Assembly: GCA_903881475.1 (NCBI GenBank)
Contig: CAIRTK010000066.1
Location: 1 to 64,000 of the forward strand
Reading direction: 5' to 3'
Source: an uncultured Opitutia bacterium
Lineage (GTDB): Bacteria > Verrucomicrobiota > Verrucomicrobiia > Opitutales > Opitutaceae
DNA: 64,000 nucleotides
Shown: positions 4,701 to 53,074 of the stretch, piece by piece
Position numbering within the stretch: the first letter of the stretch is position 1
Layout: each line of letters opens with the position of its first letter
Made by a program: the position numbers and the translations under genes
The notes under the pieces: generated by a model
Databases searched by the model: none
The model's input: only the letters and a program-made list of their open reading frames with translations
What the model was told of the DNA's origin: nothing

Positions 4701-4826
4701 CTGATCCTGAGCCAGCTCCTGACCCTCTTCACCACGCCGGTCATCTACCTGTGGTTCGACCGCGTGGCGGCGGCGTGGCGGAAACGGCGTGAGGCCGTGC
4801 GGGTCGCGATGGAGGGGTCGCGGTGA
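1719..4826 (+). CDS. mdtB: RND multidrug efflux transporter, inner-membrane pump (MdtB-like)
   Basis: A 1035-residue HAE-1-type RND pump that drives drug export with the proton gradient. The N-terminus ([18 protein letters not shown]) is the first transmembrane helix, followed by a large periplasmic porter loop, the central membrane bundle, a second porter loop and the last bundle. The proton-relay residues are visible: paired Asp in [14 protein letters not shown] of TM4 and the conserved Lys in [15 protein letters not shown] of TM10. It overlaps the adaptor by four bases and the next pump by four bases (GTGA). Two different RND pumps behind one adaptor is the MdtBC arrangement, where the pumps form a heterotrimer. 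Confidence 0.92.
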
Positions 4827-9874: not shown

Positions 9875-10594
9875 ATGACCACCGCCAGCGCAACATCGAC
9901 CGAGACCCAGGCGATCGTCGCGACCGATCTGTCCAAATGGTTTGGCGAGGGAGAGACCCGGGTGACCGCCGTGGACGGGGTGGCGCTCACCGCCCACTTT
10001 GGTGAGATGCTGTTCATCGTCGGCCCGTCGGGCAGCGGCAAGACCACGCTCCTCAGCATGATCTCGGGCATTCTCCGGCCCAATGCCGGCATGGTCCAGG
10101 TCAAGGGGGCGGACATCTGGACGCTGAACAACGACCAGCTGGCCGATTTCCGCCTGAACACGGTCGGCTTTGTCTTCCAAGACTACCACCTGTTTCCCCG
10201 CCTGACCACGGCGGAGAATGTCGCGATTCCGTTGATCCTGAAGCGCCACAACTGGAGCGAGTCGATCGACCAGGCGAACCAATATCTCGAGATCGTCGGC
10301 CTGAAGGGCCGCGGCGAAACCCTGCCGGTGACGCTGTCGGGCGGCGAACAGCAGCGGGTGGCGATCGCCCGCGCGATCATCAGCCGCCCGGAGATCCTGA
10401 TCCTGGACGAACCGACCGCCTCCCTGGACGGGGACACCGGCCGGATGATCATCTCCTTCGTGAAGGAAAAAATCCTCAATGCGAGCCGCTGCATCCTGAT
10501 CGTCACCCATGATGCGCGCATCAACGAGTACGCGGACCGGATTCTCCATATGGAGGACGGCCACCTCACGGCGACCGACCAAGGAGCCGAATGA
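9875..10594 (+). CDS. ABC exporter ATP-binding protein (LolD/MacB/DevA-like)
   Basis: A 239-residue ATPase that powers the export complex encoded by the next three genes. It has Walker A GPSGSGKTT (about residues 50-58), the Q-loop in FQDYHLFPRLT, the signature LSGGEQQRVAIARA, Walker B ILILDEPTASLD and the switch His in VTHD. The ATG at 9875 is preferred over an upstream in-frame ATG because the family begins a few residues before the ATDLSKWFG strand. Its stop overlaps the adaptor start (ATGA 10591-10594). The order ATPase, HlyD-like protein, channel, FtsX-like permease resembles DevBCA-TolC systems. The substrate is unknown. Confidence 0.9.
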   Translation: MTTASATSTETQAIVATDLSKWFGEGETRVTAVDGVALTAHFGEMLFIVGPSGSGKTTLLSMISGILRPNAGMVQVKGADIWTLNNDQLADFRLNTVGFVFQDYHLFPRLTTAENVAIPLILKRHNWSESIDQANQYLEIVGLKGRGETLPVTLSGGEQQRVAIARAIISRPEILILDEPTASLDGDTGRMIISFVKEKILNASRCILIVTHDARINEYADRILHMEDGHLTATDQGAE

Positions 10595-11919
10595 ACTCCG
10601 CCGAGCCCAGTCCCGCCGCCAAGCCCGCTTCTCCGGCCCCCGCTGAAAACCTCCTTGAGTCCAAGCCGGCGCCCATGGCGCCGGCGTCTGCGGTTCCTGT
10701 GTCCGAGGCCAAGCAAGCTCCCGCCCCAACGGCCGTGCCCAAGCCTGCGGCCCCGGCCAAAGCGCCGGAACCGGAAGCCCACGCCAAGACTCCGGGAGCC
10801 CCGCCGGAGGCCAAAGTGGCCAAGGCCCGGATGGATCTGCGCAACAAGGTCATCTTCGGCCTTTCGATCCTCGGCGTGCTGGCCGCGTTGGTCGCCGCCT
10901 ATCTGTTTGGCATTGCGCGGAAGGCGCAGCCCCCGGTGTTCGCCCCCGTCAGCAGCCCCTACGAATCCGCCATCTACGCCAACGGCATTGTCGAAAGCGA
11001 CCAGTCGAGCGGCTCCAACATCAATATTTATCCGGAAGTCTCCGGCCCCATCACTCGGATCTTCGTGCACGAGGGTCAGGTGGTTTCGGCCGGTATGCCG
11101 CTGCTGGCCATGGATGACTCGGTCCAAAAGGCGCAGACGGAGCAACTGCGCCTGCAAGCGGAGGCCGCCCTGGCCCTGCTCAACGAACTCAAGGCGGAGC
11201 CCCGAATGGAAGCGCTGGCGATTGCCGCGGCCCAGGTGGACCTGGCCGAAGCCAGCCTGCGGGTGGCGCGCGACCAATATGACAAGGACCGGGCCTCCTA
11301 TGACCTCGATCCCAAGTCGATCAGCAAGGGCGTGCTCGATACCGCGGATGACACCGCCAGGCAGGCCTCGGCCGCTCTCGATGTGGCGCGACGCCAACTC
11401 GACCTGACCAAGGCCGGTGCTTGGAGCTACGACATCGTCAGCCAAGAGAAACAGTCCGCCGCGCTGCAGCAGGCCTATCTTGCCGCCAACGCCCTGCTGC
11501 AAAAATACGTGATCAAGGCCCCAGCCGACGGAGTCGTGCTGTCCCTCTATGCCGCCGTGGGCAGCTATGTTTCCCCGCAGGGTGCCTACGATCCTTACAC
11601 CCAGGGATTCGACCAATTGGCGATCATGGGACCGGCGCAGGACTATCTGGCGGTGCGCTGCTACGTCGATGAGATCCTGATCTCCCGGTTGCCTTCCAAG
11701 TGGCATATCCGCGCGCAGATGTCGATCAGCGGCACCGACATCAAGGTGCCGCTGGAGTTCGTCCGGGTCCAACCCTACGTCTCGCCCAAGATCGAGCTCT
11801 CCAACCAACGCCAGGAGAAAGTCGATCTGCGGGTGTTGCCGGTGATCTTCCGCTTTCAGAAGCAGGACATCCCCGTGTACCCGGGCCAGCTGGTGGATGT
11901 TTACATCGGTAACAAGTAA
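10591..11919 (+). CDS. HlyD-like periplasmic adaptor of the ABC exporter (DevB-type)
   Basis: A membrane fusion protein of 442 residues. The first ~80 residues are an unusual Ala/Pro/Lys-rich cytoplasmic tail, followed by one membrane segment (about residues 88-107, VIFGLSILGVLAALVAAYLF). The periplasmic part has a barrel-sandwich hybrid domain split around a long coiled-coil hairpin (about 175-300, AQVDLAEASLRVARDQYD). The second lipoyl half is YVIKAPADGVVLSLYAAVGS, and a beta-barrel domain ends the protein. It should bridge the permease to the channel encoded next. The tail is far longer than in AcrA or MacA and its role is unclear. Confidence 0.87.
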   Translation: MNSAEPSPAAKPASPAPAENLLESKPAPMAPASAVPVSEAKQAPAPTAVPKPAAPAKAPEPEAHAKTPGAPPEAKVAKARMDLRNKVIFGLSILGVLAALVAAYLFGIARKAQPPVFAPVSSPYESAIYANGIVESDQSSGSNINIYPEVSGPITRIFVHEGQVVSAGMPLLAMDDSVQKAQTEQLRLQAEAALALLNELKAEPRMEALAIAAAQVDLAEASLRVARDQYDKDRASYDLDPKSISKGVLDTADDTARQASAALDVARRQLDLTKAGAWSYDIVSQEKQSAALQQAYLAANALLQKYVIKAPADGVVLSLYAAVGSYVSPQGAYDPYTQGFDQLAIMGPAQDYLAVRCYVDEILISRLPSKWHIRAQMSISGTDIKVPLEFVRVQPYVSPKIELSNQRQEKVDLRVLPVIFRFQKQDIPVYPGQLVDVYIGNK

Positions 11920-11954
11920 CGGTGGCCCGACCCATCCCAGCGCGCGCCGCCACG

Positions 11955-13439
11955 ATGAGCCCACGACCATCAACTTTCCTGCGAAGCGCCGGCTTCGCCG
12001 GCATCCTCGGGTCACTCGGCGCCTGCGCGGTCGGACCTGATTTTGTCCGCCCCGCCGCCCCGGTCGCGGACCGTTATACCGTGGCGCCGTTGCCGGCGAC
12101 GACACCGGCGGCGGATGGCCGGACCCAGTCGCTGGTGCCGAACGGGACCAGCATGGCGGAATGGTGGCGCCTGTTCGAGTCACCGCCGCTGGACGCCGTG
12201 GTGCGGCAGGCCTTGGCTAACAGTCCGACCCTGCAGGCGGCGGAGGCCAGCCTGCGCCAGAGCCAGGATAATCTCCGCGCGGGTTTTGGACTATTTTATC
12301 CCCACGCGACGGCGGACCTGGGTGTCAGCCGGGAACGCAGCGCGCCGTCGCAGCAGGGCCTGGCGACGCGAAGCACGGTCTTCAATCTGGTGACCCTGAG
12401 CGGCACCGTGAGCTATGCCCTCGACGTCTTCGGCGGTGAGCGCCGGGCGGTGGAGGGTCTGCGGGCGCAGACCGACTATCAGCGTTACGCCATGCTGGCG
12501 GCCTACCTCACGTTGTCCGCCAATGTCGTGAACACATGCATCGCGCGCGCTGCCTACGTGGCCGAGATCCGTGCGACCGAACAGCTGATCGGCCTGGAAC
12601 AGGAGCAGTTGCGGCTGACAGAGGTGCAGGTCCGCGCCGGCACCGCGCCATATGCGAACCTCCTGAGCATTCGCAGCCTGCTGTCCGCCAACCAGGCCGC
12701 CCTGGCCCCGCTGCGCCAGAGAGTCGGCCAGGCCGAGGACCTGCTGGCCACGCTGGAAGGCGTGGTGCCGGCGCAGGCGATCCTGCCTGAGCTTGAGCTG
12801 ACCGCACTGGCGCTGCCGGCCCGGTTGCCGGTGAGCCTGCCCTCCGACCTGGTACGCCAGCGTCCCGACATCCTGGCCGCCGAGGCCCAGTGGCATGCCG
12901 CCAACGCGAACATCGGCGTCGCCACCGCCGCGATGTTCCCCAGTTTCAACCTGACCGGCACCTCTGGTGCCGCCGCTCCCAACCTCGGCCGGCTTTCCGC
13001 GGCCGACAGCCGGTTCTGGAGCATCGGTCCGTCGGCCTCGATTCCCCTGTTTCAAGGCGGCACCCTGTGGTTCGGCCGGAAGGCGGCCATCGAGGCCGGG
13101 CGGGAAGCGGAGGCCAATTACCGCCAGACCGTGCTGGGGGCGTTTGCGCAGGTCGCGGATTCGTTGCAGGCGCTGGTGCACGATGCGGAGGCGCTCCAGG
13201 CGCAAACCGAAGCCTGGCACACCGCCGGCGAGGCCCTCGGCTTGCTGCAGGTCAATTATCGCGCGGGCCTCGTCGCCTACCCGGATGTGCTGGTCGCCGA
13301 TGTCCAATTCCACGAGGCGACCATCGCCTATCTGCAGGCGGTCGCACAACGCCACCAGGACACCGTCGCGTTGTTCGTGGCGCTGGGTGGGGGCTGGTGG
13401 AACCAGCCGTTGTTGCCGAACGAAGGCGGGGCACGATGA
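11955..13439 (+). CDS. Outer-membrane efflux lipoprotein (NodT family), ABC exporter channel
   Basis: A second TolC-like channel, 494 residues, distinct from the RND one. ATG 11955 (alternative in-frame start at 11922) opens a lipoprotein signal with lipobox G-S-L-G-A-C, followed by AVGPDFVRPAAP, the usual N-terminus of NodT proteins. Two efflux repeats follow, with the V-R-Q-R-P-D-I-L-A-A-E motif at the start of the second. It lies between the adaptor and the permease, and its stop overlaps the permease start (ATGA 13436-13439), so this tripartite complex probably has its own dedicated channel. Confidence 0.9.
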   Translation: MSPRPSTFLRSAGFAGILGSLGACAVGPDFVRPAAPVADRYTVAPLPATTPAADGRTQSLVPNGTSMAEWWRLFESPPLDAVVRQALANSPTLQAAEASLRQSQDNLRAGFGLFYPHATADLGVSRERSAPSQQGLATRSTVFNLVTLSGTVSYALDVFGGERRAVEGLRAQTDYQRYAMLAAYLTLSANVVNTCIARAAYVAEIRATEQLIGLEQEQLRLTEVQVRAGTAPYANLLSIRSLLSANQAALAPLRQRVGQAEDLLATLEGVVPAQAILPELELTALALPARLPVSLPSDLVRQRPDILAAEAQWHAANANIGVATAAMFPSFNLTGTSGAAAPNLGRLSAADSRFWSIGPSASIPLFQGGTLWFGRKAAIEAGREAEANYRQTVLGAFAQVADSLQALVHDAEALQAQTEAWHTAGEALGLLQVNYRAGLVAYPDVLVADVQFHEATIAYLQAVAQRHQDTVALFVALGGGWWNQPLLPNEGGAR

Positions 13440-37992: not shown

Positions 37993-38889
37993 CTAGGCCA
38001 CGCGCCGGGAGCGAAACTCCCGCGGGGAGAGGTCGGTGTGGCGCTGGAAAAAACTCGAGAAATACGAGGTGCTCTTGAATCCGAGATGATGGGCGATTTC
38101 CATCGGCGAATTCGTGGTGTGCAGCAGCAGCCGCTTGGCCTCAAAGACGAGGCGGTCGTGGATGAAATCACTGGGCGCCCGGCCGGTTTCGCGGAGCACC
38201 GTCCGGTGCAGGTAGGAACGGGAAACATCGAGGAACTGGGCGAATTCCTTCACGGTGGCGAGACGGGGACACTGGGTCAGCAGCGCCTGCTTGAACTCGC
38301 TGGCCAGGGGATTCGTCTGGCCGGCCCTTGGCCGCGCGCCGCGGCCGACCTGGAAGCCGTTGATCTTGCTGAACAGGATCAGCAGGAGCGCCTTGAGCAC
38401 CTCGCGCTGGTCGAAGTTCGAGGGACCCTCCGATTCCCGCATGATGGCGAAGACATGGCGGATCAGCTCATCCTCGTTGGAATTCAGGTGGATCGAACGC
38501 GACCCGTTGGGCTGCAGGAAGGACGTCAGCTCCCGGAACGGCAGGGAAAAATTCGCCGACGAGGTGAAAATCTCCGACACCGCCAGCATGGAACCCTCAA
38601 GGTGCCGGGTTTCCGTCCAGTGATGGATGTCGCCCGGGCCAAGGATGAGCAGCGACTTGGGCACGACTTCGATCACGTCGCAATCCCGCTGGATCCGTCC
38701 CTGGCCGCCGCGAAACCAGAAGATTTCAAAGTGCGGATGCCGGTGCCGGAAGGCGATGCTGGCGCCCCGGCTGCCATCCGGATTCTGCGCGAATCCCTCG
38801 TGATAAATGAAATCGCCGACCTTGAATCCGGGATGGCCATGGTCCGCATGGATCGGCAGTTCGCGGATCATGATTCGTTCGTGGGGCAT
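37993..38889 (-). CDS. AraC-family transcriptional regulator
   Basis: A 298-residue regulator. The N-terminal half is a cupin-like sensing domain (FRHRHPHFEIFWFRGGQGRI, then LLILGPGDIHHW). The C-terminal ~95 residues form the double helix-turn-helix (ATVKEFAQFLDVSRSYLHRT, then MEIAHHLGFKSTSYFSSFFQ and LSPREFRSRR). ATG 38889 is chosen over an in-frame start 16 codons upstream. It is the last gene of a minus-strand series after two TonB receptor genes, making it the likely regulator of that uptake locus, with the transported compound or a metabolite as ligand (inference). Confidence 0.9.
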   Translation of the reverse strand: MPHERIMIRELPIHADHGHPGFKVGDFIYHEGFAQNPDGSRGASIAFRHRHPHFEIFWFRGGQGRIQRDCDVIEVVPKSLLILGPGDIHHWTETRHLEGSMLAVSEIFTSSANFSLPFRELTSFLQPNGSRSIHLNSNEDELIRHVFAIMRESEGPSNFDQREVLKALLLILFSKINGFQVGRGARPRAGQTNPLASEFKQALLTQCPRLATVKEFAQFLDVSRSYLHRTVLRETGRAPSDFIHDRLVFEAKRLLLHTTNSPMEIAHHLGFKSTSYFSSFFQRHTDLSPREFRSRRVA

Positions 38890-38980
38890 GGTTGGTCTCC
38901 GATTGCGGCGCTCACCTTCCGCGTCGGGCGGAAGCATCGGGTCCGGTGACGCATGGAGCGTGCCATGCGCGTTTCCCCAA

Positions 38981-41954: not shown

Positions 41955-44372
41955 TCAGAAGTGATACCGGACCGTGACCGAAGCGGAGATCGGGGCGCGG
42001 TAGTAGATCACGTCGTTGCCGGCGAAGCCCACGTCAACCGGGTCAAAGAGCTTCGAGTTCAGGATGTTCTTCACGCTCAGCTGAACGTCCCAGGTCTTCG
42101 AGCGGTAGTACACGTAGCCGTTCCACTGGTATTGCAGGGGAATGTGCAGCGTGCCCTCGGCGTTGGCGTCCTGCTTGCCGTTGACCTGGGGCCCGACGCC
42201 GAACCCGACATGGTCGGTGAAGGCGTAGCTGGCGAAGGCATTGGCCAGGAACTGCGGCACACCGGGAGCGCGGGCCTTCCCGTTGGCCGGCGCATAGCCG
42301 CCGTAATTCGGGCTGCCCTGACCCGTGCCGGACTTGCCATCGACAATGTAGCCGACGGGATAAAGGTCGAGGTAGTTGGTGGTCTGCTCGTAGAAGAAAC
42401 TCGAGTAGGCAGTCGCGTCCTGGAAGGTCGCGTTGGCATTGAAGGTCAGCTTCTTCGAGGGCTGGTAGACGACCTCGGCCTCGACGCCGTTGGTGCGGAG
42501 CAGCACGGATGGCCCCCTCAACTGCGGGGCGATGCGGTATTGCTGGAAGATGGCAATGCTCCCATAGAGCGTGTTCTTCAGCTGGCTGGTCTTGAAGCCG
42601 GCTTCGTAGAGTTTGCTCTCGGTTTTCAGCGCATTCTTCATGGCGTCCGGACCGCTCGCGCCATCGACGCCGCCAAAGTTGGCCGAACCCAGAATGGCAT
42701 CGATCCGGTCATAGGTCACATACAGCGAGGAGTTCTCGGTGGCCTTGAAAATCAGGCTCGTGAAAAGCGAGGGGTCCGTGACCGTGGCGGTGGAATTGTA
42801 GAAGCTGCCATAGGGGACGCCGACCAGGGCGGGATTCGCCGCCGAGGCATGGATCTGATCCACGCGACCGCCGATGACGGCCGACCACTGGCTGTTGAAC
42901 TGGATGTCCTGCTGATAGAACGCAGCCGCGTCGAAGATCTTGGAATCCTGGGTGCCCGGATCGGGGAAGGGATTGGCGCTGTAGTTGGCCTTGCCCGGGA
43001 TGGGATAGCCGCCGAAGGTATGGGTCGCCAGGAACTGGGGCAGAATCAGCGAATCGCCGCCCTGGGTGAGGTCATAGTACGAGAACGGCTCGATGCTGAA
43101 GTCGGAGTAGGAGGTCAGGCGCTGATACTTGAGGTCGATGCCGGTGTTTACCTTGCTCTTGAGGCCGAGCATGGAGAACGAGTTCTCGTACTGCGTGCGA
43201 TTGTCGAACGACCAGTCGGTGGGCACGTACTCGTCATAGGCGTAGAGCTCCCACTTGCGGGAATCACGGGTCTCGAAGTAGGTCAGGTTCTCGATCTTCG
43301 CATCACCGCCGACGTAGGCCGTGGTGACCAGCTGGGTCTGGAAGCGTTTCGAACGGTTACTGTCGGAGGGACCCACCAGCGCCTGGTAGGGATAGATCTT
43401 CACGAGGTGGGCGGTGGCGGGATTGATCAGGCCGCGGTATTCGGAAGAGACCGGGCCGGCCACATAGAGCTGGTTGTCGATGAAGTTCTGGGTGACACGG
43501 TTGACGCCGGAGATCTCGTTGAATCGGTTGGCATAGAACTGCCCGAACCACTCAAAGGTAAGGCTTTCGCTGGGCTTGTACGTGAGGGCGGCATAAATGT
43601 CCTGCGTCTCGTTCTTGGTGTTCAGGTAGTAACCGTCGCCGTAGCGGCTGAGGTAGCTGACGCGGTAGGCGAGTGTCTTGCTGAGCGGAGCGCTGGTGTC
43701 GATCTGCGCCTCGGGGTTCGAGTAGGTGCGCCCGCTGGTCCAATAGCCCAGCGTCGTGCTGATGTCGGTATGTTCGCCGTCGAAGTAGGGCTTCTTGCTG
43801 ACCAGGTTCACGTAGCCGCCGGGGCCTTGGCCCTGGGGGCCGTAGACCGCGGAGCCGGGACCCTTGACGATGTCCATGGCTTCGACGCCGTTGAAGCTCG
43901 GGAGCACGCTGTTGCGGCTGTATTTCGTGCCCTGGCCGTTGAAGTAGATTTCGCCAAGGTCACCGCGGATCTGCGGGGTGGCCGGCACGCCGTACTGGGC
44001 GGCGGAATAGACGCCGGGAGAAAACTGGCCGAAGTCCATGGCGTCCTTAACCCCGCGCTCGTCCATCCACGCCTTGTTGACGCTCGTGACCGAGCGGGGC
44101 GTGTCAAGGATACTGCGGTCGTCGCCCATGACGCTGCCGATCGGGCGCACCGTGGGCAGGACGTTCTTGTCGATCGGCACTTCACTCACGGTGAATTTGT
44201 CGAGCATCGTCACGAAGGACGAGGATGATGCATCCGTGGCGGCGGTGGTGGTGGCCGGAGCCGGAGTGGCTGGCGGCGTTGATGTCTGGGCCGAAAGGGA
44301 ACCCGCGGCGAGGGTCATTGCCAACAGCAATGCGCACAGGCGCTTGTTGGAATTTGAGTCAGTATGGTTCAT
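41955..44372 (-). CDS. TonB-dependent outer-membrane receptor 2
   Basis: An 805-residue receptor paralogous to receptor 1. Signal peptide (LCALLLAMTLAAGSLSAQ), a Thr/Ala/Pro-rich linker, the plug with DTPRSVTSVNKAWMDERG and MDIVKGPGSAVYGPQGQGPG, then the barrel ending in SASVTVRYHF. Both receptors share the rare VEAEVVYQPSKK-like and YPVGYIVDGKSGTGQGSP-like segments, so they probably bind related ligands. It follows the importer binding-protein gene on the same strand across a 231-base gap holding a perfect dyad, and is closed by a strong terminator. Confidence 0.93.
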   Translation of the reverse strand: MNHTDSNSNKRLCALLLAMTLAAGSLSAQTSTPPATPAPATTTAATDASSSSFVTMLDKFTVSEVPIDKNVLPTVRPIGSVMGDDRSILDTPRSVTSVNKAWMDERGVKDAMDFGQFSPGVYSAAQYGVPATPQIRGDLGEIYFNGQGTKYSRNSVLPSFNGVEAMDIVKGPGSAVYGPQGQGPGGYVNLVSKKPYFDGEHTDISTTLGYWTSGRTYSNPEAQIDTSAPLSKTLAYRVSYLSRYGDGYYLNTKNETQDIYAALTYKPSESLTFEWFGQFYANRFNEISGVNRVTQNFIDNQLYVAGPVSSEYRGLINPATAHLVKIYPYQALVGPSDSNRSKRFQTQLVTTAYVGGDAKIENLTYFETRDSRKWELYAYDEYVPTDWSFDNRTQYENSFSMLGLKSKVNTGIDLKYQRLTSYSDFSIEPFSYYDLTQGGDSLILPQFLATHTFGGYPIPGKANYSANPFPDPGTQDSKIFDAAAFYQQDIQFNSQWSAVIGGRVDQIHASAANPALVGVPYGSFYNSTATVTDPSLFTSLIFKATENSSLYVTYDRIDAILGSANFGGVDGASGPDAMKNALKTESKLYEAGFKTSQLKNTLYGSIAIFQQYRIAPQLRGPSVLLRTNGVEAEVVYQPSKKLTFNANATFQDATAYSSFFYEQTTNYLDLYPVGYIVDGKSGTGQGSPNYGGYAPANGKARAPGVPQFLANAFASYAFTDHVGFGVGPQVNGKQDANAEGTLHIPLQYQWNGYVYYRSKTWDVQLSVKNILNSKLFDPVDVGFAGNDVIYYRAPISASVTVRYHF

Positions 44373-44428
44373 AGTTTTTGGATGTTACCCGGTTGGTCAG
44401 GGGGTCCATAAGCACATGCCGTGCCTAC

Positions 44429-44443
44429 CACGGTCAAACCGTG
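44429..44443. promoter_or_regulatory. 15-bp perfect dyad upstream of TonB receptor 2
   Basis: CACGGT-CAA-ACCGTG lies about 57 bases upstream of the receptor start. No T-run follows it on the minus strand, so an operator is more likely than a terminator. Whether the AraC-type regulator at 38 kb binds here is a guess. No second copy was noticed. Confidence 0.35.
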
Positions 44444-44603
44444 CCACCTTTCATGGCATCGGACACTTTGGCGGTGGTCCAGTCCGCCCCGGCAACGCCG
44501 CTGGATGGGGTGACTGCGCCTTCGCCCAACCCTGTGCCGGATGAGCGGTCGCTATGAAAAATAGCCCCCCGGCCGGTCAACCCGGACTTCCCGTCGCAAA
44601 CGC

Positions 44604-45623
44604 TTATTTGGCCGGGGCCGATCCCGGCGCGGGGAGAAGCAAATGGCCGTCGAGCACGTCCTCGACCTTCAGCGGCTGTTCTAGCACGCCAATCTCGACC
44701 AGCTGGCGGATCTGCTCCGCGATCCGCTCGGGCCGGATCTGCCCGTACGTTTCACCCTTGGCCGGGTCGCCGGCCACCAGCTGGTACTGTTTCATGGCGC
44801 TGACCCCATAGTCCATGAATTCGGGCATCATCTGTTTGTTGTCCTTGCGAATGAGATCATTGGCGGCCGTCCGGTCCCCTTCCATGTACTCGCGCCAGCC
44901 CCGTACCGAGGCGGCGGTGAAGGCGCGCACCGCCTCCGGGTTCTCCGTGGCGAATTTCCGGCTCGTGAACCACACCCGGTAGGGTGAAAAGCCGGTGTCG
45001 GAGAGCAGCAGTGTGCCGATGTCGGCCCCTTGTTTCCGGACATAGAAGGGCTCGTTCGTGATGAAGCACTGCTGGACAAAATTCGGATCCGCCAGGAACC
45101 GGCTCAGGCCGAAATCGAGCGGGGTGATGGAGATCTTGATGCCGTATTTCTTCTCCATGATCGGGATGAAGTTGGCGCCGGGCGTCGTCATGACGTTGCG
45201 CCCGTCCAGATCCTTGAAGCCGTGGATGCCGCTGCCCTTGTGAAACATGATGGCCTGCGGGTCGCGCTGCATGAGTGCGCCCGCGATCACAACGGGCAGC
45301 CCGCGGGCGACGGTGACGATGACGTCGTCGCTGCGCCCGATGCAGAACTGGATGTCTCCCATCAGCAGTTTCTGCCCGGCGATGGTGTTGGGTCCGCCCT
45401 GCTCGATGGACACATCCAAGCCCGCATCGCGGTAATAGCCCTTGGCGAGCGCCTGATAGAATCCGCCGTGCTCCGGCTGGGCATACCAGTCGGTCTGCAG
45501 GATGATTTTGGTCAGCGGCTTGGGCCCGCCGGCGGCGGGAACGGCAGCTTTTTCGCCGCAGCCAGCGAGGGTGAAGGCGGTGAGCGTGACGAACAGGCGG
45601 AAAAGGAAGGGACGGAGGTTCAT
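44604..45623 (-). CDS. ABC importer substrate-binding lipoprotein (NMT1/THI5-like)
   Basis: A 339-residue periplasmic binding protein. Lipoprotein signal with lipobox L-A-G-C (about residue 22). The NMT1/THI5 fold is marked by ILQTDWYAQPEHGGFYQALA, KGYYRDAGLDVSIEQGG and later GRNVMTTPGANF. Proteins with W-x-x-x-P-E-H-x-G/A-F-Y at this place bind pyrimidine-like, thiamine-precursor or other nitrogenous aromatics, so this supports a heterocyclic substrate but does not identify it. It follows the permease gene on the same strand, separated by a palindromic repeat. Confidence 0.88.
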   Translation of the reverse strand: MNLRPFLFRLFVTLTAFTLAGCGEKAAVPAAGGPKPLTKIILQTDWYAQPEHGGFYQALAKGYYRDAGLDVSIEQGGPNTIAGQKLLMGDIQFCIGRSDDVIVTVARGLPVVIAGALMQRDPQAIMFHKGSGIHGFKDLDGRNVMTTPGANFIPIMEKKYGIKISITPLDFGLSRFLADPNFVQQCFITNEPFYVRKQGADIGTLLLSDTGFSPYRVWFTSRKFATENPEAVRAFTAASVRGWREYMEGDRTAANDLIRKDNKQMMPEFMDYGVSAMKQYQLVAGDPAKGETYGQIRPERIAEQIRQLVEIGVLEQPLKVEDVLDGHLLLPAPGSAPAK

Positions 45624-45660
45624 GGTCGGGCTGGCTTAGGGAAGGGTCGTCAAACCCGGA

Positions 45661-45753
45661 TTGTCATTCTGAGCGCAGCGAGGAATCCAGTTGGATATCA
45701 CCGAAGCTCACGGCGGAATCTCACTGGATTCCTCGCTGCGCTCAGAATGACAA
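45661..45753. repeat. Long palindromic repeat of the TGTCATTCTGAGCG type, copy 1
   Basis: Two inverted arms, 45661-45691 and 45722-45753, each about 30 bases and nearly perfectly complementary, begin with TTGTCATTCTGAGCGCAGCG. It lies between the permease and binding-protein genes of one importer. A close relative is at 57406-57500, also between genes, and both share flanking AAACCCG-type sequence. Confidence 0.88.
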
Positions 45754-45822
45754 AGGTTTGTACCACGGGTTGGAGACATTCCCTAAGCTAATCGCGTGCC
45801 GGTTGCGGGCGAACGGCCGCGT

Positions 45823-46605
45823 TCACTCCTTCTTCACCAGCGAGTCGTGCCACTTGTGCAGCAGATACCAGTGGAGGAGGTTGACCCCGCCGACGAAGAT
45901 GAAGCCCAGCAGGCAGGCCACGAAGCCGGTGGCGAAGAGGGCGGGGGTCTTGAGCTGGGAGGAATAGGCGAGGGTCATGTAGCCGATGCCGCCCTGCCCG
46001 TTGATGGTGCTGCCGGCGAGGAAGTCGCCGACGATGGCGCCGATGGGGGCGAGCGTGCCGGCGATTTTCATGCCGGTGAGAAAATACGGCATCGCCCCCG
46101 GGATGCGCAGGTAGCGGATTTCCTGCCCGCGGGTCGCCTTGCACATCAGGAAAAGCTCCTGGAGGTTCCGGTCCACCGAGATGAAGCCCATCGTGGTGTT
46201 GGCCACGATCGGGAAAAACCCGATCATGAAGGTGATCGCGACGATGCTGGGCAGGCCCTGGCCGAGCCAGAGCACGAAGATCGGCGCGAGAATCGTCACC
46301 GGCATCATCTGCATGATCAGGATGTAGGGATAGAAGGACTCCTTGATGAGCCGGGAAAAGCCCAGGACCATGGCGAGCAGGAAGCCGCCGCCCACCGCCA
46401 TCAGGAAGCCGAGCATGGCGCCGCGCGAGGTGATGAGCACCGCGGCGAACAGGGTGCTCCGCTCCTGCCAGGCGGCCTTCAGGATCTCGCCGGGCGTGGG
46501 CAGCAGCCAGGCCTCCACGTGGCAGACCCGCCGCACCGTGTACCAGAGCGCGATCAGCAGCGCGCCGGCGCAGAGGGGATTGATCCAGGAGCGAAGGCGT
46601 TTCAT
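45823..46605 (-). CDS. ABC importer permease (SsuC/TauC/ThiX-type)
   Basis: A 260-residue inner-membrane protein with about six helices and the binding-protein-dependent permease signature near KIAGTLAPIGAIVGDFLAGS (the E-A-A loop contacting the ATPase). Length and sequence fit permeases of the nitrate/sulfonate/taurine and pyrimidine-precursor importers. It lies eight bases downstream of the ATPase gene. ATG 46605 is followed by a short basic N-terminus, as expected. Confidence 0.9.
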   Translation of the reverse strand: MKRLRSWINPLCAGALLIALWYTVRRVCHVEAWLLPTPGEILKAAWQERSTLFAAVLITSRGAMLGFLMAVGGGFLLAMVLGFSRLIKESFYPYILIMQMMPVTILAPIFVLWLGQGLPSIVAITFMIGFFPIVANTTMGFISVDRNLQELFLMCKATRGQEIRYLRIPGAMPYFLTGMKIAGTLAPIGAIVGDFLAGSTINGQGGIGYMTLAYSSQLKTPALFATGFVACLLGFIFVGGVNLLHWYLLHKWHDSLVKKE

Positions 46606-46612
46606 GGCGGGG

Positions 46613-47374
46613 TCAGTGGCGGACGGCGCGCAGCGCGTGCGAGGTTTCGGCGAGCAGCTTCAGGAACTCCGGCGTCTCGCGCAGCTCCGCGGTGCGCGGG
46701 TACGCGAACGGCACCGGGATCACCCCGGCGATGCGCCCCGGGTTGGCCGACAGCACTACGATGCGCGTCGAGAGAAACACCGCCTCGGTGACGGAGTGGG
46801 TGACGAAAAACGCGGTGAACGCGTCGCGCTGCCGGATTCTCAGCAGGTCCTCGTTGAGCTGGTCGCGGGTCATTTCGTCCAGGGCGCCGAACGGTTCGTC
46901 GAGCAGCAGGATGGCCGGCGCCACGCTGAGCGCCCGGGCGATCGAGACGCGCATCTTCATGCCGCCGGAAAGCTGCCACGGGTATTTCCCGGCGGCGGCC
47001 TCCAGCCCCACGATCTGGAGCATCTCCCGCACCCGGGCCTCGCGGTGGTAGGCGGTGTCGCCCCGCAGCAGCAGCGGCAGCTCCACGTTGGCCGCCACGC
47101 GCCGCCACGGCAGGAGGTTCGCGTCCTGGAACACAAAGAACATTTCCTCGCGAGCGTTGACCGGCGTCATGCCATCCACCACCAGGCTGCCCGTGCTGGC
47201 GTCCGTCAGGCCGGCGATGAGGCGCAGCAGCGTGGATTTGCCGCAGCCGCTCGGCCCGATGAAGCTGATGAATTCCCCGCGGTCGACGGCGAGGTTGATC
47301 CCGTCGAGCACGAGGGGGCCCGTGCCAAAGCGCTTGCCGATATTGTCGATCCGGACGATCGGGGGATTGGTCAT
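46613..47374 (-). CDS. ABC importer ATP-binding protein (SsuB/TauB/ThiZ-type)
   Basis: A 253-residue ATPase with Walker A GPSGCGKSTLLRLIAGLTD (about residues 39-46), Q-loop FVFQDANLLPW, signature LSGGMKMRVSIARAL, Walker B ILLLDEPFGALDE and switch His in FVTHSVTEA. The short distance to the permease gene and shared strand mark one transporter. It follows the FAD oxidase gene by 33 bases, tying the oxidase to uptake. Confidence 0.93.
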   Translation of the reverse strand: MTNPPIVRIDNIGKRFGTGPLVLDGINLAVDRGEFISFIGPSGCGKSTLLRLIAGLTDASTGSLVVDGMTPVNAREEMFFVFQDANLLPWRRVAANVELPLLLRGDTAYHREARVREMLQIVGLEAAAGKYPWQLSGGMKMRVSIARALSVAPAILLLDEPFGALDEMTRDQLNEDLLRIRQRDAFTAFFVTHSVTEAVFLSTRIVVLSANPGRIAGVIPVPFAYPRTAELRETPEFLKLLAETSHALRAVRH

Positions 47375-47407
47375 GCGGCGGGAATCGGCGGTCGCGGGGC
47401 GGCGGTT

Positions 47408-48838
47408 TCAGACTGCGGTGCCGGCCAGGGTGCCGGCCGCGGGGGCGAAGGGGTTCTGCGGATAGGACTTCATCTTGCCCGGGTTCAGCAAGGCATGCGG
47501 GTCCAGCTCGGCCTTGAGCGCCCGCTTCTCGACGATGTTCGGATGGCGCCCGCCTTCCTCCAGGTAGAACGTGTGGGGATTCGCGATGAACACCCCAATT
47601 TCGGCGCAATAGTCGAGCAGCTCCTGGAGCCGGGCCTCGGACTTGAAGTACACCAGCGGGATGCCGCCCATGCCGACGTTCTCGCCGGAATGGGTCCCGA
47701 TGTCCTCGCGCGTCATCTTGGGGTTGCCCGCGATCCATTCGAGGTGGAGCAGGACCTCGCCCGGGAATTTTTTTTCCAGCAGGGCGAACTGCTCGCGGAA
47801 ATTCCGGCCGAATCCCGCCTGCACATAGGTCAGGGTGGGGTCGCTCTTCATCGCCCAGAGCGTCGTGTGGTTCCACGTGTAGTCCGTGATGAACGGCGGC
47901 TTGGGCGGGTCGGAGAACGGCGTGCGGTAGACGCAGGCCAGGCCCGCGGCCGCAGCGTCGGCGATGATCGCCTCGGCCTGGGTGCGCGCGACGAGCAGGA
48001 AGGTGACATGCTCGCCGGTGCGGAAGTATTTCACCAGCGGCTTGAAGAACGACGGGATCGGCCACTGGAACTGCGTCACCAGGCGCTTGCCCCACGCGGC
48101 GTGGTGCGCGGCGTCGTCGCTCCAGGTCACGAGCTTCTCCCAGTCGGGCGAGCTGATGATGAGCTGTTCGTAGTCCACCTTCGGCGCCAGCCGCATCTCG
48201 ATCTCCACCATGATGCCGGTCGTGCCGTAGGTGTGGAGCGCGCGCTTGGAGTCGCCCTCCTCGAGTTTCAGGAGCCGCGGGGTTTCCTCGCAGGAGAGCA
48301 GGGTGACGGACTTGACGTTGCCCGGGGCGTTGATGCCGCCCCAGGTGATCGAGCCGATGCCGCCGGAGCCGCCGCAGAAAAACCCCGCCATGGAACTCTT
48401 GACCCAGGTCGAGGGCATGCAGCGCAGCTCCCAGCCGGCCTTGCGCGCCTCGGCCTCGATGGTGCCAAGCCGGGCGCCGGGTTCCACGCGCACCACGCCG
48501 TCGGGCGTGAGCTCGAGGATCCGGTCCAGCCGGGCCAGGTCGAGCACGACGCCGCCGAACAGCGGGACACACTGGCCGTAATTGCCGGTGCCGGCGCCGC
48601 GCACGGTGACGGGCACCCGGGCGCGGGCGCAGGCGGCGACGGCGGCCTTCAACTCCTCCAGGGTGCCGGGCCGGACGGCGACATCCGCGCGCTTGTCGTC
48701 GAGCTGGCGCTTCAGCACCGGCGAATACCAGTAGAAATCCTTGGAGAGGGTCTCGAGCGCCTCCCCGGTGTCGATCACGTTGGCCGGCCCCAGCAACGCG
48801 CGCAATTCGGGGATCAGGGTGGTGGGAAAGGCGGGCAT
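47408..48838 (-). CDS. FAD-linked oxidase (GlcD/VAO-type)
   Basis: A 476-residue flavoenzyme. The N-terminal FAD-binding domain of the vanillyl-alcohol-oxidase/PCMH family is clear: VAVRPGTLEELKAAVAACAR, VTVRGAGTGNYGQCVP, GVVRVEPGARLGTIEAEAR, GFFCGGSGGIGSITWGG. A cap domain follows, ending in the DPHALLNPGKM motif typical of GlcD-like enzymes. It should oxidise an alcohol, alpha-hydroxy acid or cyclic amine. ATG 48838 is preferred over one 16 codons upstream. It heads the minus-strand uptake operon and is divergent from the amidohydrolase operon, so it is probably a catabolic step for the imported compound. Confidence 0.88.
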   Translation of the reverse strand: MPAFPTTLIPELRALLGPANVIDTGEALETLSKDFYWYSPVLKRQLDDKRADVAVRPGTLEELKAAVAACARARVPVTVRGAGTGNYGQCVPLFGGVVLDLARLDRILELTPDGVVRVEPGARLGTIEAEARKAGWELRCMPSTWVKSSMAGFFCGGSGGIGSITWGGINAPGNVKSVTLLSCEETPRLLKLEEGDSKRALHTYGTTGIMVEIEMRLAPKVDYEQLIISSPDWEKLVTWSDDAAHHAAWGKRLVTQFQWPIPSFFKPLVKYFRTGEHVTFLLVARTQAEAIIADAAAAGLACVYRTPFSDPPKPPFITDYTWNHTTLWAMKSDPTLTYVQAGFGRNFREQFALLEKKFPGEVLLHLEWIAGNPKMTREDIGTHSGENVGMGGIPLVYFKSEARLQELLDYCAEIGVFIANPHTFYLEEGGRHPNIVEKRALKAELDPHALLNPGKMKSYPQNPFAPAAGTLAGTAV

Positions 48839-49156
48839 GGGCAGGATGTCAGCAGGAATACTGCCATAAATTCCCGCTTCCGCCACTGCAGGTCACGCCT
48901 TTTGTGCTGGGGAAGATGGCACGCATTGCCCCAATGCGTTGGCTGGCTCCGTCTGCGATTCAATGCGGATCACGATGCTCAACGCCTTGAGGACAACGCG
49001 TTCCACCTTCCGACGCGGGCTTGGCGTCCGCCTTGCGCGGCCCGAAGTGGCGACCGTTTCGTGATTTTGAAGACTGTTTTCGCCCGGACCGGGCGACGAA
49101 TGGACCGGCCGTGGCATATCCCCTGCTCCCCGCGGGCGTCCCTCCTTAATCGCCGC
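48839..49156. promoter_or_regulatory. Divergent intergenic region between the FAD oxidase and amidohydrolase operons
   Basis: These 318 bases must hold the promoters of both divergent operons. Part of the space (48909-49011) is a palindromic repeat pair. No gene is seen: the amidohydrolase frame stays open far upstream, but that extension lies antisense to the oxidase gene. Confidence 0.5.
48909..49011. repeat. Dispersed palindromic repeat R2, copy a (inverted pair)
   Basis: The arm 48909-48950 (core CGCATTGCCCCAATGCGTTG) and the inverted arm 48977-49011 (core AGGACAACGCGTTCCACCTT) are imperfect reverse complements. Related sequences lie at 50486-50522 and 58036-58166. The core is itself nearly palindromic. 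Confidence 0.7.
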
Positions 49157-50431
49157 ATGCTCATTCTTCGCCGGGCCCTGGTGCCCGTATCCCTGCTGCC
49201 TGGTCCGTTGGCCCGGACGGCCGTCGACGCTGTCGAACCGGCGTTGCTTTGCGATGTGACGCTGGAGGCAGGGCGGATCACGGCGGTGGCTGCGGCCGGG
49301 GCAATGGCGCCCGCGGCCGGTGCGGTGGTCGAGGATCTCGAGGGCGCGCTGGTGTGGCCGGGGCTGGTTGACGCCCATGTCCACCTCGACAAGGCGCACA
49401 CGTGGCACCGCGCGCCCAACCGCAGCGCCACGTTCGCGGAAGCGCTCATGGTGCTCGGCCGGGACAAGGACCACTGGACGGCCGCCGACCTGGAGCGCCG
49501 GGCGGAATTTTCGCTGCGCTGCGCCTATGCGCATGGCACGCGGATCATCCGCACCCACGTGGACACCGGCCTGCCCTGGGCCGAGACCAGCCATGCGGTG
49601 ATGGCCGCCTTGCGGTCGAGGTGGGCCGGCCGCATCGAGCTGCAAACGGTGCCGCTGTGCGGGACCGGCGATTTTTCCACGGCGCGCGGCGAAAAAATCG
49701 CCGACCTCGCGCTGCGCCACGGGGCCAGCGCGCTGGGCGGCTTCGCCGTCATGTCGCCGGAACTGCCGGCCCACTTCGACCGGGAGCTCGCCATCGCCCG
49801 CGAGCGCGGGGTCGGCCTTGACCTGCACGTGGATGAGAACGGCAATCCCGGCTCCGAGTGCCTCCGGCTCGTCGCCGAGGCCGTGCTGCGCACCGAATTT
49901 CCGTATCCGGTCGTCTGCGGCCACTGTTGCAGCCTCGGGGTGCAGCCGCCCGCCCGGCAGCGGGCGACCCTCGATCTCGTCAGGGCGGCCGGCCTGAAGG
50001 TGATCTCGCTGCCGCTGTGCAATCTTTACCTGCAGGACCGGCGGGCGGCGGATGCCTTTCCCCGTCATCCGTCGTGGCGCGGACTCACCCTCATCCAGGA
50101 CATGCTCGATGCCGGTATCCCGGTCGCGTGCGCGAGCGACAACGTCCGCGACGCCTTTTTTGCCTATGGCGATTTCGACCTGCTCGAAGTTTACGCGCAA
50201 AGCGTGCGGCTCGCGCATCTCGACACGCGGCTGGCGGAGTCCGTGCGGGTCGTCAGCGCCACGGCGGCGGACATCGTGGGCCGGCCCGATGCCGGCCGGA
50301 TCGCGCCGGGCGCCCCGGCGCAGCTGGTGATCACGGCCGCCCGCTCCTTCAGCGAGTTGCTGAGCCGGCCGGCCGCGCCGCTGCGTCGATGGCGAACGGA
50401 TCCACACGCCGGAATTGCCGGACTATCGTGA
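49157..50431 (+). CDS. Cytosine-deaminase-type (CodA-like) amidohydrolase
   Basis: A 424-residue metal-dependent hydrolase. The metal ligands are visible: HVHLD (H74, H76) in WPGLVDAHVHLDKAHTWH, a His in LDLHVDENGNPGSECL, His in PVVCGHCCSLG and the catalytic Asp in CASDNVRDAFFAYGD. The S-D-N-V-R-D-x-F block is typical of the cytosine/creatinine/isocytosine deaminase subgroup, which act on exocyclic amino or imino groups of rings. ATG 49157 gives the expected N-terminal beta-sandwich. It is the first gene of the plus-strand operon leading to the creatininase and Rid genes. The exact substrate is not readable from sequence. Confidence 0.87.
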   Translation: MLILRRALVPVSLLPGPLARTAVDAVEPALLCDVTLEAGRITAVAAAGAMAPAAGAVVEDLEGALVWPGLVDAHVHLDKAHTWHRAPNRSATFAEALMVLGRDKDHWTAADLERRAEFSLRCAYAHGTRIIRTHVDTGLPWAETSHAVMAALRSRWAGRIELQTVPLCGTGDFSTARGEKIADLALRHGASALGGFAVMSPELPAHFDRELAIARERGVGLDLHVDENGNPGSECLRLVAEAVLRTEFPYPVVCGHCCSLGVQPPARQRATLDLVRAAGLKVISLPLCNLYLQDRRAADAFPRHPSWRGLTLIQDMLDAGIPVACASDNVRDAFFAYGDFDLLEVYAQSVRLAHLDTRLAESVRVVSATAADIVGRPDAGRIAPGAPAQLVITAARSFSELLSRPAAPLRRWRTDPHAGIAGLS

Positions 50432-50485
50432 ACTCGGCAGCTGAAGATAATGGATTGAAACGCGGGGCGCCGCGGCTCCAACCCG

Positions 50486-50522
50486 CAGCCAACGTGCTGG
50501 GGGCAACGCGTTCCACCTTCAA
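50486..50522. repeat. Dispersed repeat R2, copy b (single arm)
   Basis: Contains AGCCAACGTGC and GGGCAACGCGTTCCACCTTC, matching the inverted arm of the repeat at 48977-49011. It lies in the 148-base gap between the amidohydrolase and DUF2165 genes. Confidence 0.6.
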
Positions 50523-50579
50523 GCGCATGATCCCGGCTGACTGCTTCCCGGTTGGCGTTTATCCTGCTATGGATTTCCC

Positions 50580-51083
50580 ATGATCATCCGCCTTGCCAAG
50601 GCCGTGCTGGCCGCCGCCCTCGGGTTTTTCCTGCTCATCGTCGTATTCAACAACCTCACCGACTACGGCTCGAACTACGGTTTCGTCTTCCACGTCCTCG
50701 CGATGGACACGTCCTTCCCGGGCAACCAGCTCATGTGGCGCTCGATCCACAGCGAGCCGGTTTACCATGCCTTCTATGTCTCGATCATCCTCTGGGAGGC
50801 GACGGCCTGCACCCTGCTCTTTGCCGGGGCCTGGAAGCTCTGGGCGGCCCGCGCCGCGGCGGCGGCGACGTACAACCGCGCCAAGAGCCTCGCCGTGCTC
50901 GGGCTCACGCTGAACCTCCTGCAATGGCTCGTGGCTTTCCTGACCGTCGGGGGCGAATGGTTTGTCATGTGGCAGTCCAAGACCTGGAACGGCCAGGATG
51001 CCGCCGCCCGCATGTTCATGGTGGCGGGGATCATCCTGCTCTTCGTCAACTCGCGTGACGAGGAACTCGCCCCCGCGGCCTGA
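50580..51083 (+). CDS. DUF2165-type small integral membrane protein
   Basis: A 167-residue membrane protein with four predicted helices: about 5-25 (AVLAAALGFFLLIVVFNNL), 65-88, 100-122 and 140-155. The motifs NNLTDYGSNYGFVFHVLAMD and TWNGQDAAARMFMVAG are characteristic of DUF2165. Function unknown. It sits between the amidohydrolase and creatininase genes on the same strand, so it may aid transport or sensing of the substrate. Confidence 0.85.
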   Translation: MIIRLAKAVLAAALGFFLLIVVFNNLTDYGSNYGFVFHVLAMDTSFPGNQLMWRSIHSEPVYHAFYVSIILWEATACTLLFAGAWKLWAARAAAAATYNRAKSLAVLGLTLNLLQWLVAFLTVGGEWFVMWQSKTWNGQDAAARMFMVAGIILLFVNSRDEELAPAA

Positions 51084-51102
51084 CTCGTTTTCATACCGAC
51101 CC

Positions 51103-51873
51103 ATGGCCGCCCCGATCACGCCGCTCTGCATTGCCGATGACGCCACGTTCTGGCCTTGGCGCACCTGGACCGACTTTGCGCGCCTGACGACGGCCCAGAA
51201 AGCCGCCACCACCGTGATCGTGCCCGTCGCCGGGTTTGCCGACTGGGGCCTCGGCCACGCGCTCGACGCCGAGGAGCTCGTGCTCACGCACCTCATCAAG
51301 GCGGCCGTCGCCCAGTCGCCCGCCGGGTTCACCCCGCTCGTGATCCCGCCGCTGCGCTTCGTGCTCGGTCCCGACCCGGCCTGCGCCTTCGCGGTCGATC
51401 CGCCCACGGCCCATGCGCTCCTGCGCGAGGTCGCGCTCTCGATCAAGGCGACCGGCTTCGGGCGCCTTATCCTGTTCAACGCCAGCCCATGGAACGAGGA
51501 GCTCTGCGCCGCGGCCAGCCGCGACCTGCGCATCGAGCTCGGGTTGCAGATTTTCCGGATCAACCTCGGCATGATCGACCTCGATTTTCATCCCGTGCGC
51601 AGCAAGACCCGCCGCCAGGTGCAGACCCTCGTGACCGCGCTGACCGGCCGTGCGCCGGACCCGCAGCCGGACACGCCGGCGGCCCCGGCCTTCTGGGCCG
51701 ACGAGCGCATCCGGCCGCTGGCCGGACCGGCCGTTCCGCCGGAGGCCGCGGCCAGCGAGGGCGCGGCCATCCTCGCCACGGCCGTGGCCCGGGTCGTCGG
51801 GCTCTTTGGTGAGATCGCCGCCCACCCGCCGCTCGCCCGCGATGGCGCCCTGGTCACGATGACGCCCCCATGA
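51103..51873 (+). CDS. Creatininase-family protein lacking the metal ligands (probable pseudoenzyme)
   Basis: A 256-residue protein related to the creatininase encoded immediately downstream. Where that enzyme has PVGAIEQHGPHLPVSVD, this one has PVAGFADWGLGHALDAE: the Glu and His ligands are replaced by Ala and Trp. The NTHGGN motif is replaced by NASPWN, and no equivalent of HANEAET is seen. The overall layout (start strand VIVPV, helix LLREVALSIKATGFGRLILF, late PPEAAASEGAAIL) is retained. Its stop overlaps the start of the canonical gene (ATGA), implying matched production. It may be a structural or regulatory partner in a mixed oligomer. The relationship is weaker than typical, so the family call is tentative. 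Confidence 0.65.
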   Translation: MAAPITPLCIADDATFWPWRTWTDFARLTTAQKAATTVIVPVAGFADWGLGHALDAEELVLTHLIKAAVAQSPAGFTPLVIPPLRFVLGPDPACAFAVDPPTAHALLREVALSIKATGFGRLILFNASPWNEELCAAASRDLRIELGLQIFRINLGMIDLDFHPVRSKTRRQVQTLVTALTGRAPDPQPDTPAAPAFWADERIRPLAGPAVPPEAAASEGAAILATAVARVVGLFGEIAAHPPLARDGALVTMTPP

Positions 51874-52673
51874 GCTTTCCCATTTTTCCCCGTTACCGGG
51901 ACCGTTACCTGCCGGCGCTGACGCCGGCGCAGATCGCCGCGCTGCCGGACCGGGCGTGGGCGCCCGTGATCGTCCCGGTGGGCGCCATCGAGCAGCACGG
52001 ACCGCACCTGCCCGTTTCGGTGGATTCCTTCCTCGGCCAGGTCTGGGTGGAGCAGTTGCTCCCCCGTCTGCCGGCCGGCGCCTCGTGCTACATCGCGCCG
52101 CCCATCACCATTGGCAAAAGCAACGAGCACACCGGCTTTCCCGGCACGCTCATGATCTCCAAGGACACGCTGCGGTCGCAACTGCTCGTGATCGCGCGCC
52201 AGCTGCACGCCTGGGGCTTCAAACAGATGGCTATCCTCAACACCCATGGCGGCAACATGGCGGTCAACCAGTATACGCTGCGCGAGATCAACGCCACGAT
52301 CGGCCTGCGGGCGGGCAGTCTGCAAAACCGCCATTCCATCGATGTCCCGCCGCAGGAGGCGACCTACGGCTATCACGCGAACGAGGCCGAGACGGCCCTC
52401 ATGCTGGCGGCCTCCGGGCCCTACATCAAATCCGGCGCGGTCTGCGAGTACTATGCCAAACTCGGCGACACCCGCGACCTGCGGCCTGAGCGGGCGGGGG
52501 CCACCTTTGCGTGGGTCTCGCAGGATCTGTCCAAGAGCGGCATCATGGGCGACGCCACCGCGGGTACCGTCGAAAAGGGGGAACGCTGGATCGCGCACTC
52601 GGCCGAGGGGCTCGCGAAGGCCGTTGCTGCGCTCTGCGCCGAAGGCCGCGCGCTGGCGGGAGTTTCCGCATGA
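51870..52673 (+). CDS. Creatininase-family amidohydrolase (metal ligands intact)
   Basis: A 267-residue enzyme of the creatinine amidohydrolase/FAPy deformylase family, which opens cyclic amides or cleaves formamides. Key motifs are present: PVGAIEQHGPHLPVSVDSFL with Glu, His and Asp ligands (about residues 37-48), ILNTHGGNMAVN, and GYHANEAETALM with the bridging Glu. It overlaps the ligand-less paralogue upstream and the Rid gene downstream by four bases each, so the three are translated as a block. Creatinine is one possible substrate; other lactams or formamidopyrimidines fit equally well. Confidence 0.88.
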   Translation: MSFPIFPRYRDRYLPALTPAQIAALPDRAWAPVIVPVGAIEQHGPHLPVSVDSFLGQVWVEQLLPRLPAGASCYIAPPITIGKSNEHTGFPGTLMISKDTLRSQLLVIARQLHAWGFKQMAILNTHGGNMAVNQYTLREINATIGLRAGSLQNRHSIDVPPQEATYGYHANEAETALMLAASGPYIKSGAVCEYYAKLGDTRDLRPERAGATFAWVSQDLSKSGIMGDATAGTVEKGERWIAHSAEGLAKAVAALCAEGRALAGVSA

Positions 52674-53074
52674 GCCTGAAAAAAAGCTTCGTCTATCCCG
52701 GCGGTCACGCCGCGCCGCGCGGTGCGTACAGTCCCGGCCTGAAAGTCGAGCTGCCGGGTGGCGGCGTGATGCTGTTTGTCACCGGCCAGCTCGCGCGCGC
52801 GCCGGACGGCTCGGTCGTCGCGCCGTTCGATGCGACCGCGCAGACGGATTATATCTTCAGGCTGATCGGGGAGATCCTGGGTGCCGCCGGGATGGACTAC
52901 GGCGACGTCGTCCGGGCGCAGACTTACCTGACGAACATGACCGATTTCCCGAAATTCTCCGCCGTGCGCGACCGCTATTTTGGCGCCTCGAAGCCCGCGA
53001 GCACCCTGCTCGAGGTCAAAGGCCTGGCTCATGACGGCTGCTGCGTCGAGGTCGAGGTGACGGCCATGAAGTGA
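52670..53074 (+). CDS. Rid (YjgF/YER057c/UK114) family protein without the RidA arginine
   Basis: A 134-residue protein of the Rid family, trimeric in known members, which hydrolyses reactive enamines or imines, or acts in specific catabolic steps. The fold is clear from MLFVTGQLARAPDGSVV, AGMDYGDVVRAQTYLTNMTD and the C-terminal VEVEVTAMK. The arginine that binds the substrate carboxylate in RidA (T-R-S-C-V-E-V in E. coli) is replaced: here the strand reads PASTLLEV. This places it outside the classical RidA group and suggests a pathway-specific substrate. It overlaps the creatininase gene by four bases and ends the operon. Confidence 0.87.
   Translation: MSLKKSFVYPGGHAAPRGAYSPGLKVELPGGGVMLFVTGQLARAPDGSVVAPFDATAQTDYIFRLIGEILGAAGMDYGDVVRAQTYLTNMTDFPKFSAVRDRYFGASKPASTLLEVKGLAHDGCCVEVEVTAMK

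Follow-up and report, generated by a model that had tools for sequence, protein, structure and literature searches.

Why should a bacterium keep a creatininase-like gene without the metal ligands of its family directly in front of an intact copy? This question is raised by a gene pair in the window, i.e. the 64,000-nucleotide stretch of DNA from an uncultured Opitutia bacterium analyzed here (GenBank assembly GCA_903881475.1, contig CAIRTK010000066.1). The initial annotation had described two overlapping, ATGA-coupled creatininase genes, and both reading frames are indeed present (Table 1). Their products are referred to as CRA and CRB. An overlap of the same type as that between CRA and CRB links CRB to the RidA-like ORF, and the DUF2165 gene ends 19 bp before the CRA start. 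An AraC-type regulator lies near the cluster (37993-38937, minus strand), and another one adjoins the CRA-CRB pair in locus L049 (11777-12676), both judged by sequence alone.

Table 1. Genes of the cluster around the creatininase pair in the window
Feature	Position	Strand	Evidence
CRA, predicted creatininase-fold protein without metal ligands, 256 aa	51103..51873	+	PF02633, AlphaFold2, Foldseek, VIA
CRB, intact creatininase-family amidohydrolase, 267 aa	51870..52673	+	PF02633 188 bits
RidA/YjgF-like protein	52670..53074	+	PF01042 80 bits; TIGR00004 66.5 bits (below cut-off)
DUF2165 small membrane protein	50580..51083	+	PF09933 2.9e-58
Cytosine deaminase-like amidohydrolase	49157..50431	+	NF005759/PRK07583 467 bits (cut-off 403)
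FAD-binding oxidase, divergently transcribed	47408..48886	-	PF01565 4.7e-26
ABC transporter ATPase	46613..47374	-	PF00005 1e-29
ABC transporter permease	45823..46605	-	PF00528 3.4e-21
NMT1/THI5-like substrate-binding protein	44604..45623	-	PF09084 6.7e-34
Probable TonB-dependent receptor	41955..44372	-	Named from sequence; homologue near several related clusters

Fold and metal-ligand residues of the two proteins

CRA matched the Pfam creatininase family PF02633 with 37.8 bits (gathering score 31.3) over profile positions 4-132 only, and a genome-wide search with this profile returned CRA and CRB as the sole two matches. BLASTP aligned the two proteins with 19% identity (E 7e-4), and a profile-profile comparison gave a probability of 97% (E 3.6e-11). 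As these comparisons indicate, CRA and CRB are remote paralogues. The AlphaFold2 model of CRA, built on an alignment of 37 sequences, reached a pLDDT of 92.5 and a pTM of 0.90. When it was used as a Foldseek query, the best 26 matches, which comprise every match with E ≤ 0.001, were creatininases, and an E of 4e-8 was reached. VIA-align superimposed it on 3lub with a Z of 18.8 and an rmsd of 3.3 over 218 residues, the next unrelated fold scoring Z 8.6; the Z of 18.8 also refers to the solved creatininase 3a6j. Thus, the creatininase layout previously assigned to CRA is borne out by all three programs, and according to its model CRA has the creatininase fold. This fold, represented in PF02633 by 1j2t, 1q3k, 3a6d-3a6l, 3lub and 3no4, is common to CRA and CRB. 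CRB also shares the metal-ligand motifs of the family, whereas CRA differs from the solved creatininases in being without the Glu, Asp and His ligands.

Assignment to a more specific function was not obtained for either protein. CRA did not match any of the NCBIfam equivalogs MftE, ArfB, IolN and TIGR04448. For CRB, the best-scoring equivalog was MftE (TIGR03964), yet its 108 bits are below the cut-off of 172, and the 67.4 bits obtained with the creatininase model TIGR04448 are far from the required 235. With ArfB (cut-off 180 bits) and IolN (245 bits) likewise not reached, an equivalog identity for CRB was rejected.

The metal ligands of the Pseudomonas creatininase 1j2t, which we take to be Glu34, His36, Asp45, His120 and Glu122, correspond in profile alignments to A46, W48, E57, S128 and W130 of CRA, which thus lacks the creatininase ligand set. 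Two of the losses proposed in the initial annotation are exactly as described: CRA reads GFADWGL instead of GAIEQHG, without the Glu and His, and NASPWN instead of NTHGGN, without the His. The supposed loss of the HANEAE motif is correct for its Glu residues but not for its His (H169 in CRB), which aligns with H163 of CRA. The latter residue is kept in 51 of 63 CRA sequences, including all 21 fused ones (see below).

Residues were counted in these 63 CRA sequences, no two of which are identical over the compared stretch, and in 62 CRB sequences. At the E34 position, Glu is found in 0/63 CRA relatives. The D45 position never carries Asp (0/63) and always Glu (63/63), His occurs at the H120 position in only two of the 63, and the H36 position is occupied by Trp in 35/63 and by His in 22/63. 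As this pattern of ligand loss recurs in 63 non-identical sequences, it is not a matter of chance. In the CRB relatives, E41, H43, D52, H126, H169 and E174 are conserved throughout (62/62), so that the Glu, His, Asp and His of the GxxEQHG, D and THGGN motifs are present in every sequence. The E122 position of CRB is Gly, as in THGGN-type members of the family.

CRA has invariant residues of its own, namely E57 and P82 (63/63) and E58, P83, P129 and R143 (62/63 each). Eleven of the 16 invariant positions in alignment A3 fall into segments 44-58, 82-86 and 126-131, which make up about 10% of the protein and are the counterparts of the creatininase active-site loops. Clustering of the invariants in these loops indicates that the old pocket has been remodelled under constraint and not erased, and it exceeds what a pure scaffold would require, which speaks to some extent against the partner reading favoured below. 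The remodelled pocket (D47, E57, E58, R85, S128, W130, R143 and H163) might even catalyze or bind something itself by non-metal or different-metal chemistry, in which case CRA and CRB would perform successive steps and the fused form would be bifunctional. An active CRA would account for the near-absolute conservation of the six residues named above, for the concentration of invariant positions in the loops and for the frequent retention of H163, aligned as it is with a catalytic-motif His. However, a match to another enzyme family was not obtained, CRA is most closely related to metal enzymes and has Ala, Trp or Ser in place of their ligands, and the same conservation is expected if the loops face the active site of CRB or bind a ligand. 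We regard an independently active CRA as unlikely.

Pairing, fusion and selection in relatives

A search of 141 genomes, that of the window among them, gave CRA matches in 42, and CRB follows CRA in all 30 loci that were fetched. A scan of 84,980 species genomes, which relied on a single short peptide pattern and does not imply absence elsewhere, yielded 48 loci, some of them repeat records. Those with a named group belong to Verrucomicrobiota, mostly to Opitutaceae, and include one MAG titled Akkermansia muciniphila. In 200 genomes of the family, CRA is located directly upstream on the same strand at 88 of 96 CRB matches, and an additional abutting pair outside the distance rule (G495) raises the total to 89/96. 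Three of the remaining seven CRB matches are at contig ends (G032, G518 and G548, the last with a piece of CRA). In G063, CRA begins another contig; in G022, its score is too low for the threshold of the search; the CRB match G553:C3 is a fragment; and the match in G058 is an unrelated, different single creatininase. Conversely, CRA matches without CRB are mostly explained by contig-end cuts. Diverged CRA-CRB pairs occur beyond the order (G153, G274). Roughly every second unfused locus has a four-base overlap of the ATGA type. Orthologous loci thus keep CRA adjacent to CRB, and the CRA relatives have lost the same residues.

Two loci with disrupted genes were observed along the way. G561 contains a split pair with both genes in pieces in different frames (L097, 2360-3870), due to frameshifts or assembly errors. 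In a genome of the same genus (G008, L079 near 6513), a single deletion of about 7.9 kb relative to window positions 44407-52352 begins shortly ahead of the TonB receptor gene and ends within CRB codon 162. It removes the genes for the substrate-binding protein, the ABC transporter, FAD oxidase, deaminase, DUF2165 and CRA, while RidA remains.

A sister group has CRA and CRB joined in one ORF. This applies to 21 of the 63 sequences, with a length of about 500-540 aa (more with extended linkers), and Pfam detects two creatininase stretches in the fused proteins. A frameshift or assembly artefact was ruled out by the 21 non-identical sequences, among them one from a complete genome (CP011265, L059). 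The AlphaFold2 model of the 516-aa fusion from locus L061 (pLDDT 84.5, pTM 0.88) suggests a defined packing of both domains, although the pTM of a fusion reflects domain packing indirectly. Together, the natural fusions and this confident two-domain model are suggestive of a physical association of CRA and CRB. A peculiarity of some linkers is an IS200-like Y1 transposase inserted in frame between the fused halves (L025, L026 and L066, about 9986-12103). These loci represent two related genomes, and L066 is from Ereboglobus sp. PH5-10. The transposase is RAYT-like, matches PF01797 with 38 bits in L066 and is flanked by repeat-like peptide stretches.

Phylogenetic analysis placed CRA (100/100) and CRB (100/99) in separate groups. 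The split and fused sub-groups broadly match between the two parts of the tree, with weak support for the fused rows as single clades (44/17 and 79/91). In several rows, the branch of CRA exceeds that of CRB in length. Together with the loss of the ligand residues, this might be taken as a sign that CRA is a degenerating duplicate which persists only via the operon structure. Against this, the dN/dS ratio of close pairs (Nei-Gojobori) ranges from 0.08 to 0.25 in CRA or the A half and from 0.06 to 0.20 in CRB or the B half, i.e. both proteins are under purifying selection of nearly the same level. Moreover, CRA has its private set of invariant residues and has been retained across family and class boundaries as well as in fusions. 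A decaying CRA is hardly credible, and selection and residue conservation rule it out. Since relatives keep the pair together, often in fused form, CRA is very probably a functional partner that is kept permanently.

Genomic context and possible pathway

The split pair is often clustered with a cytosine deaminase-like enzyme, an FAD oxidase, DUF2165, RidA and an NMT1-type ABC transporter, and 18 split loci carry at least one of the deaminase, FAD oxidase and DUF2165 genes. Judging from this context, the cluster in the window, with its TonB receptor, probably serves the uptake and degradation of a pyrimidine-like N-heterocycle, and CRB would hydrolyze a cyclic amide in this process. The fused form was outside such a cluster in the loci examined; all three fused neighbourhoods read in detail are unrelated to it and apparently housekeeping in nature. 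Therefore, the role of the pair may differ between the split and the fused groups.

Further genes lie near the pair in some relatives. An acetamidase/formamidase (PF03069) is encoded near the pair in L046 (15862-16800) and L039 (11580-12530), and another one was recognized from its sequence in L031 (8077-9009). A PF03069 search of the window's genome gave no match, which rules out formamidase as a general part of the cluster. L039, from IMCC26134, also has a GTP cyclohydrolase II-like protein and a xanthine/uracil-type permease near the pair (4656-7642), genes that resemble a uracil (URC) degradation cluster. A connection to the URC pathway was sought through DUF1688, for which the window's genome gave no match; as no control gave a match either, this negative carries no weight.

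The context also bears on the proposal that CRA is a regulatory subunit, in which the former active site binds the substrate, the product or some other metabolite and acts as a switch for CRB without being required for assembly. The conserved altered pocket and the obligate pairing would both fit, and sequence data cannot separate this reading from that of an obligate partner. As fused forms reside in unrelated contexts, a single common effector is less likely, and we consider a purely regulatory CRA distinctly improbable.

Probable role of CRA as a partner subunit

In our view, CRA probably serves CRB as an obligate partner subunit that carries no metal, and the two would form a complex also where they are unfused. 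The pseudoenzyme partner suggested initially for CRA has gained support from the predicted fold, from adjacent orthologues with the same losses and from natural fusions. Early in the lineage, a creatininase gene may have been duplicated. One copy, CRB, would have retained the metal site as well as its role as an amidohydrolase, while the CRA copy would have kept the fold, lost the metal ligands and gained its own set of conserved residues. CRA and CRB, co-translated or fused in the sister group, would then assemble together. Creatininases are known as homo-hexamers, and CRA would most likely take half of the subunit places in such an assembly. Each of the solved creatininases listed above is given as one molecule, in contrast to the present loci, which invariably encode a second subunit of a different kind.

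Dead paralogues that act on an active twin are known from trypanosomatids, where the AdoMetDC prozyme and the dead paralogue of deoxyhypusine synthase activate their partners, an effect that has been measured (PMC5201418, PMC3663545). CRA resembles them as a presumably dead paralogue that is co-retained with an active one (PMC5201418, PMC3663545): it is without the catalytic residues and always kept together with the active copy. By analogy, CRA might activate, shape or gate CRB. In contrast to CRA, the trypanosomatid proteins have an unrelated fold, and activation, which we infer for CRA, rests on measurement there. The accessible parts of both papers mention no natural fusion (PMC5201418, PMC3663545), unlike the situation for CRA-CRB. 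A description of a paired or dead creatininase was not found in the open-access literature, a scope that leaves out most subscription journals. A bolder reading, unlikely in our judgement, is that the creatininase fold of CRA harbours a novel site for catalysis or sensing that works without metal, which would make CRA-CRB and its fusion a bifunctional or allosterically switched enzyme unprecedented in the family.

For genome annotation, the pair is a warning: CRA scores above the Pfam creatininase cut-off, yet it should not be named an amidohydrolase. What a presumably dead subunit does for its active twin is directly testable here in a small soluble enzyme. With CRA as the probable partner of CRB, the pair would stand for a bacterial family whose metal enzyme is permanently accompanied by a metal-less paralogue, and the natural fusion provides a control.
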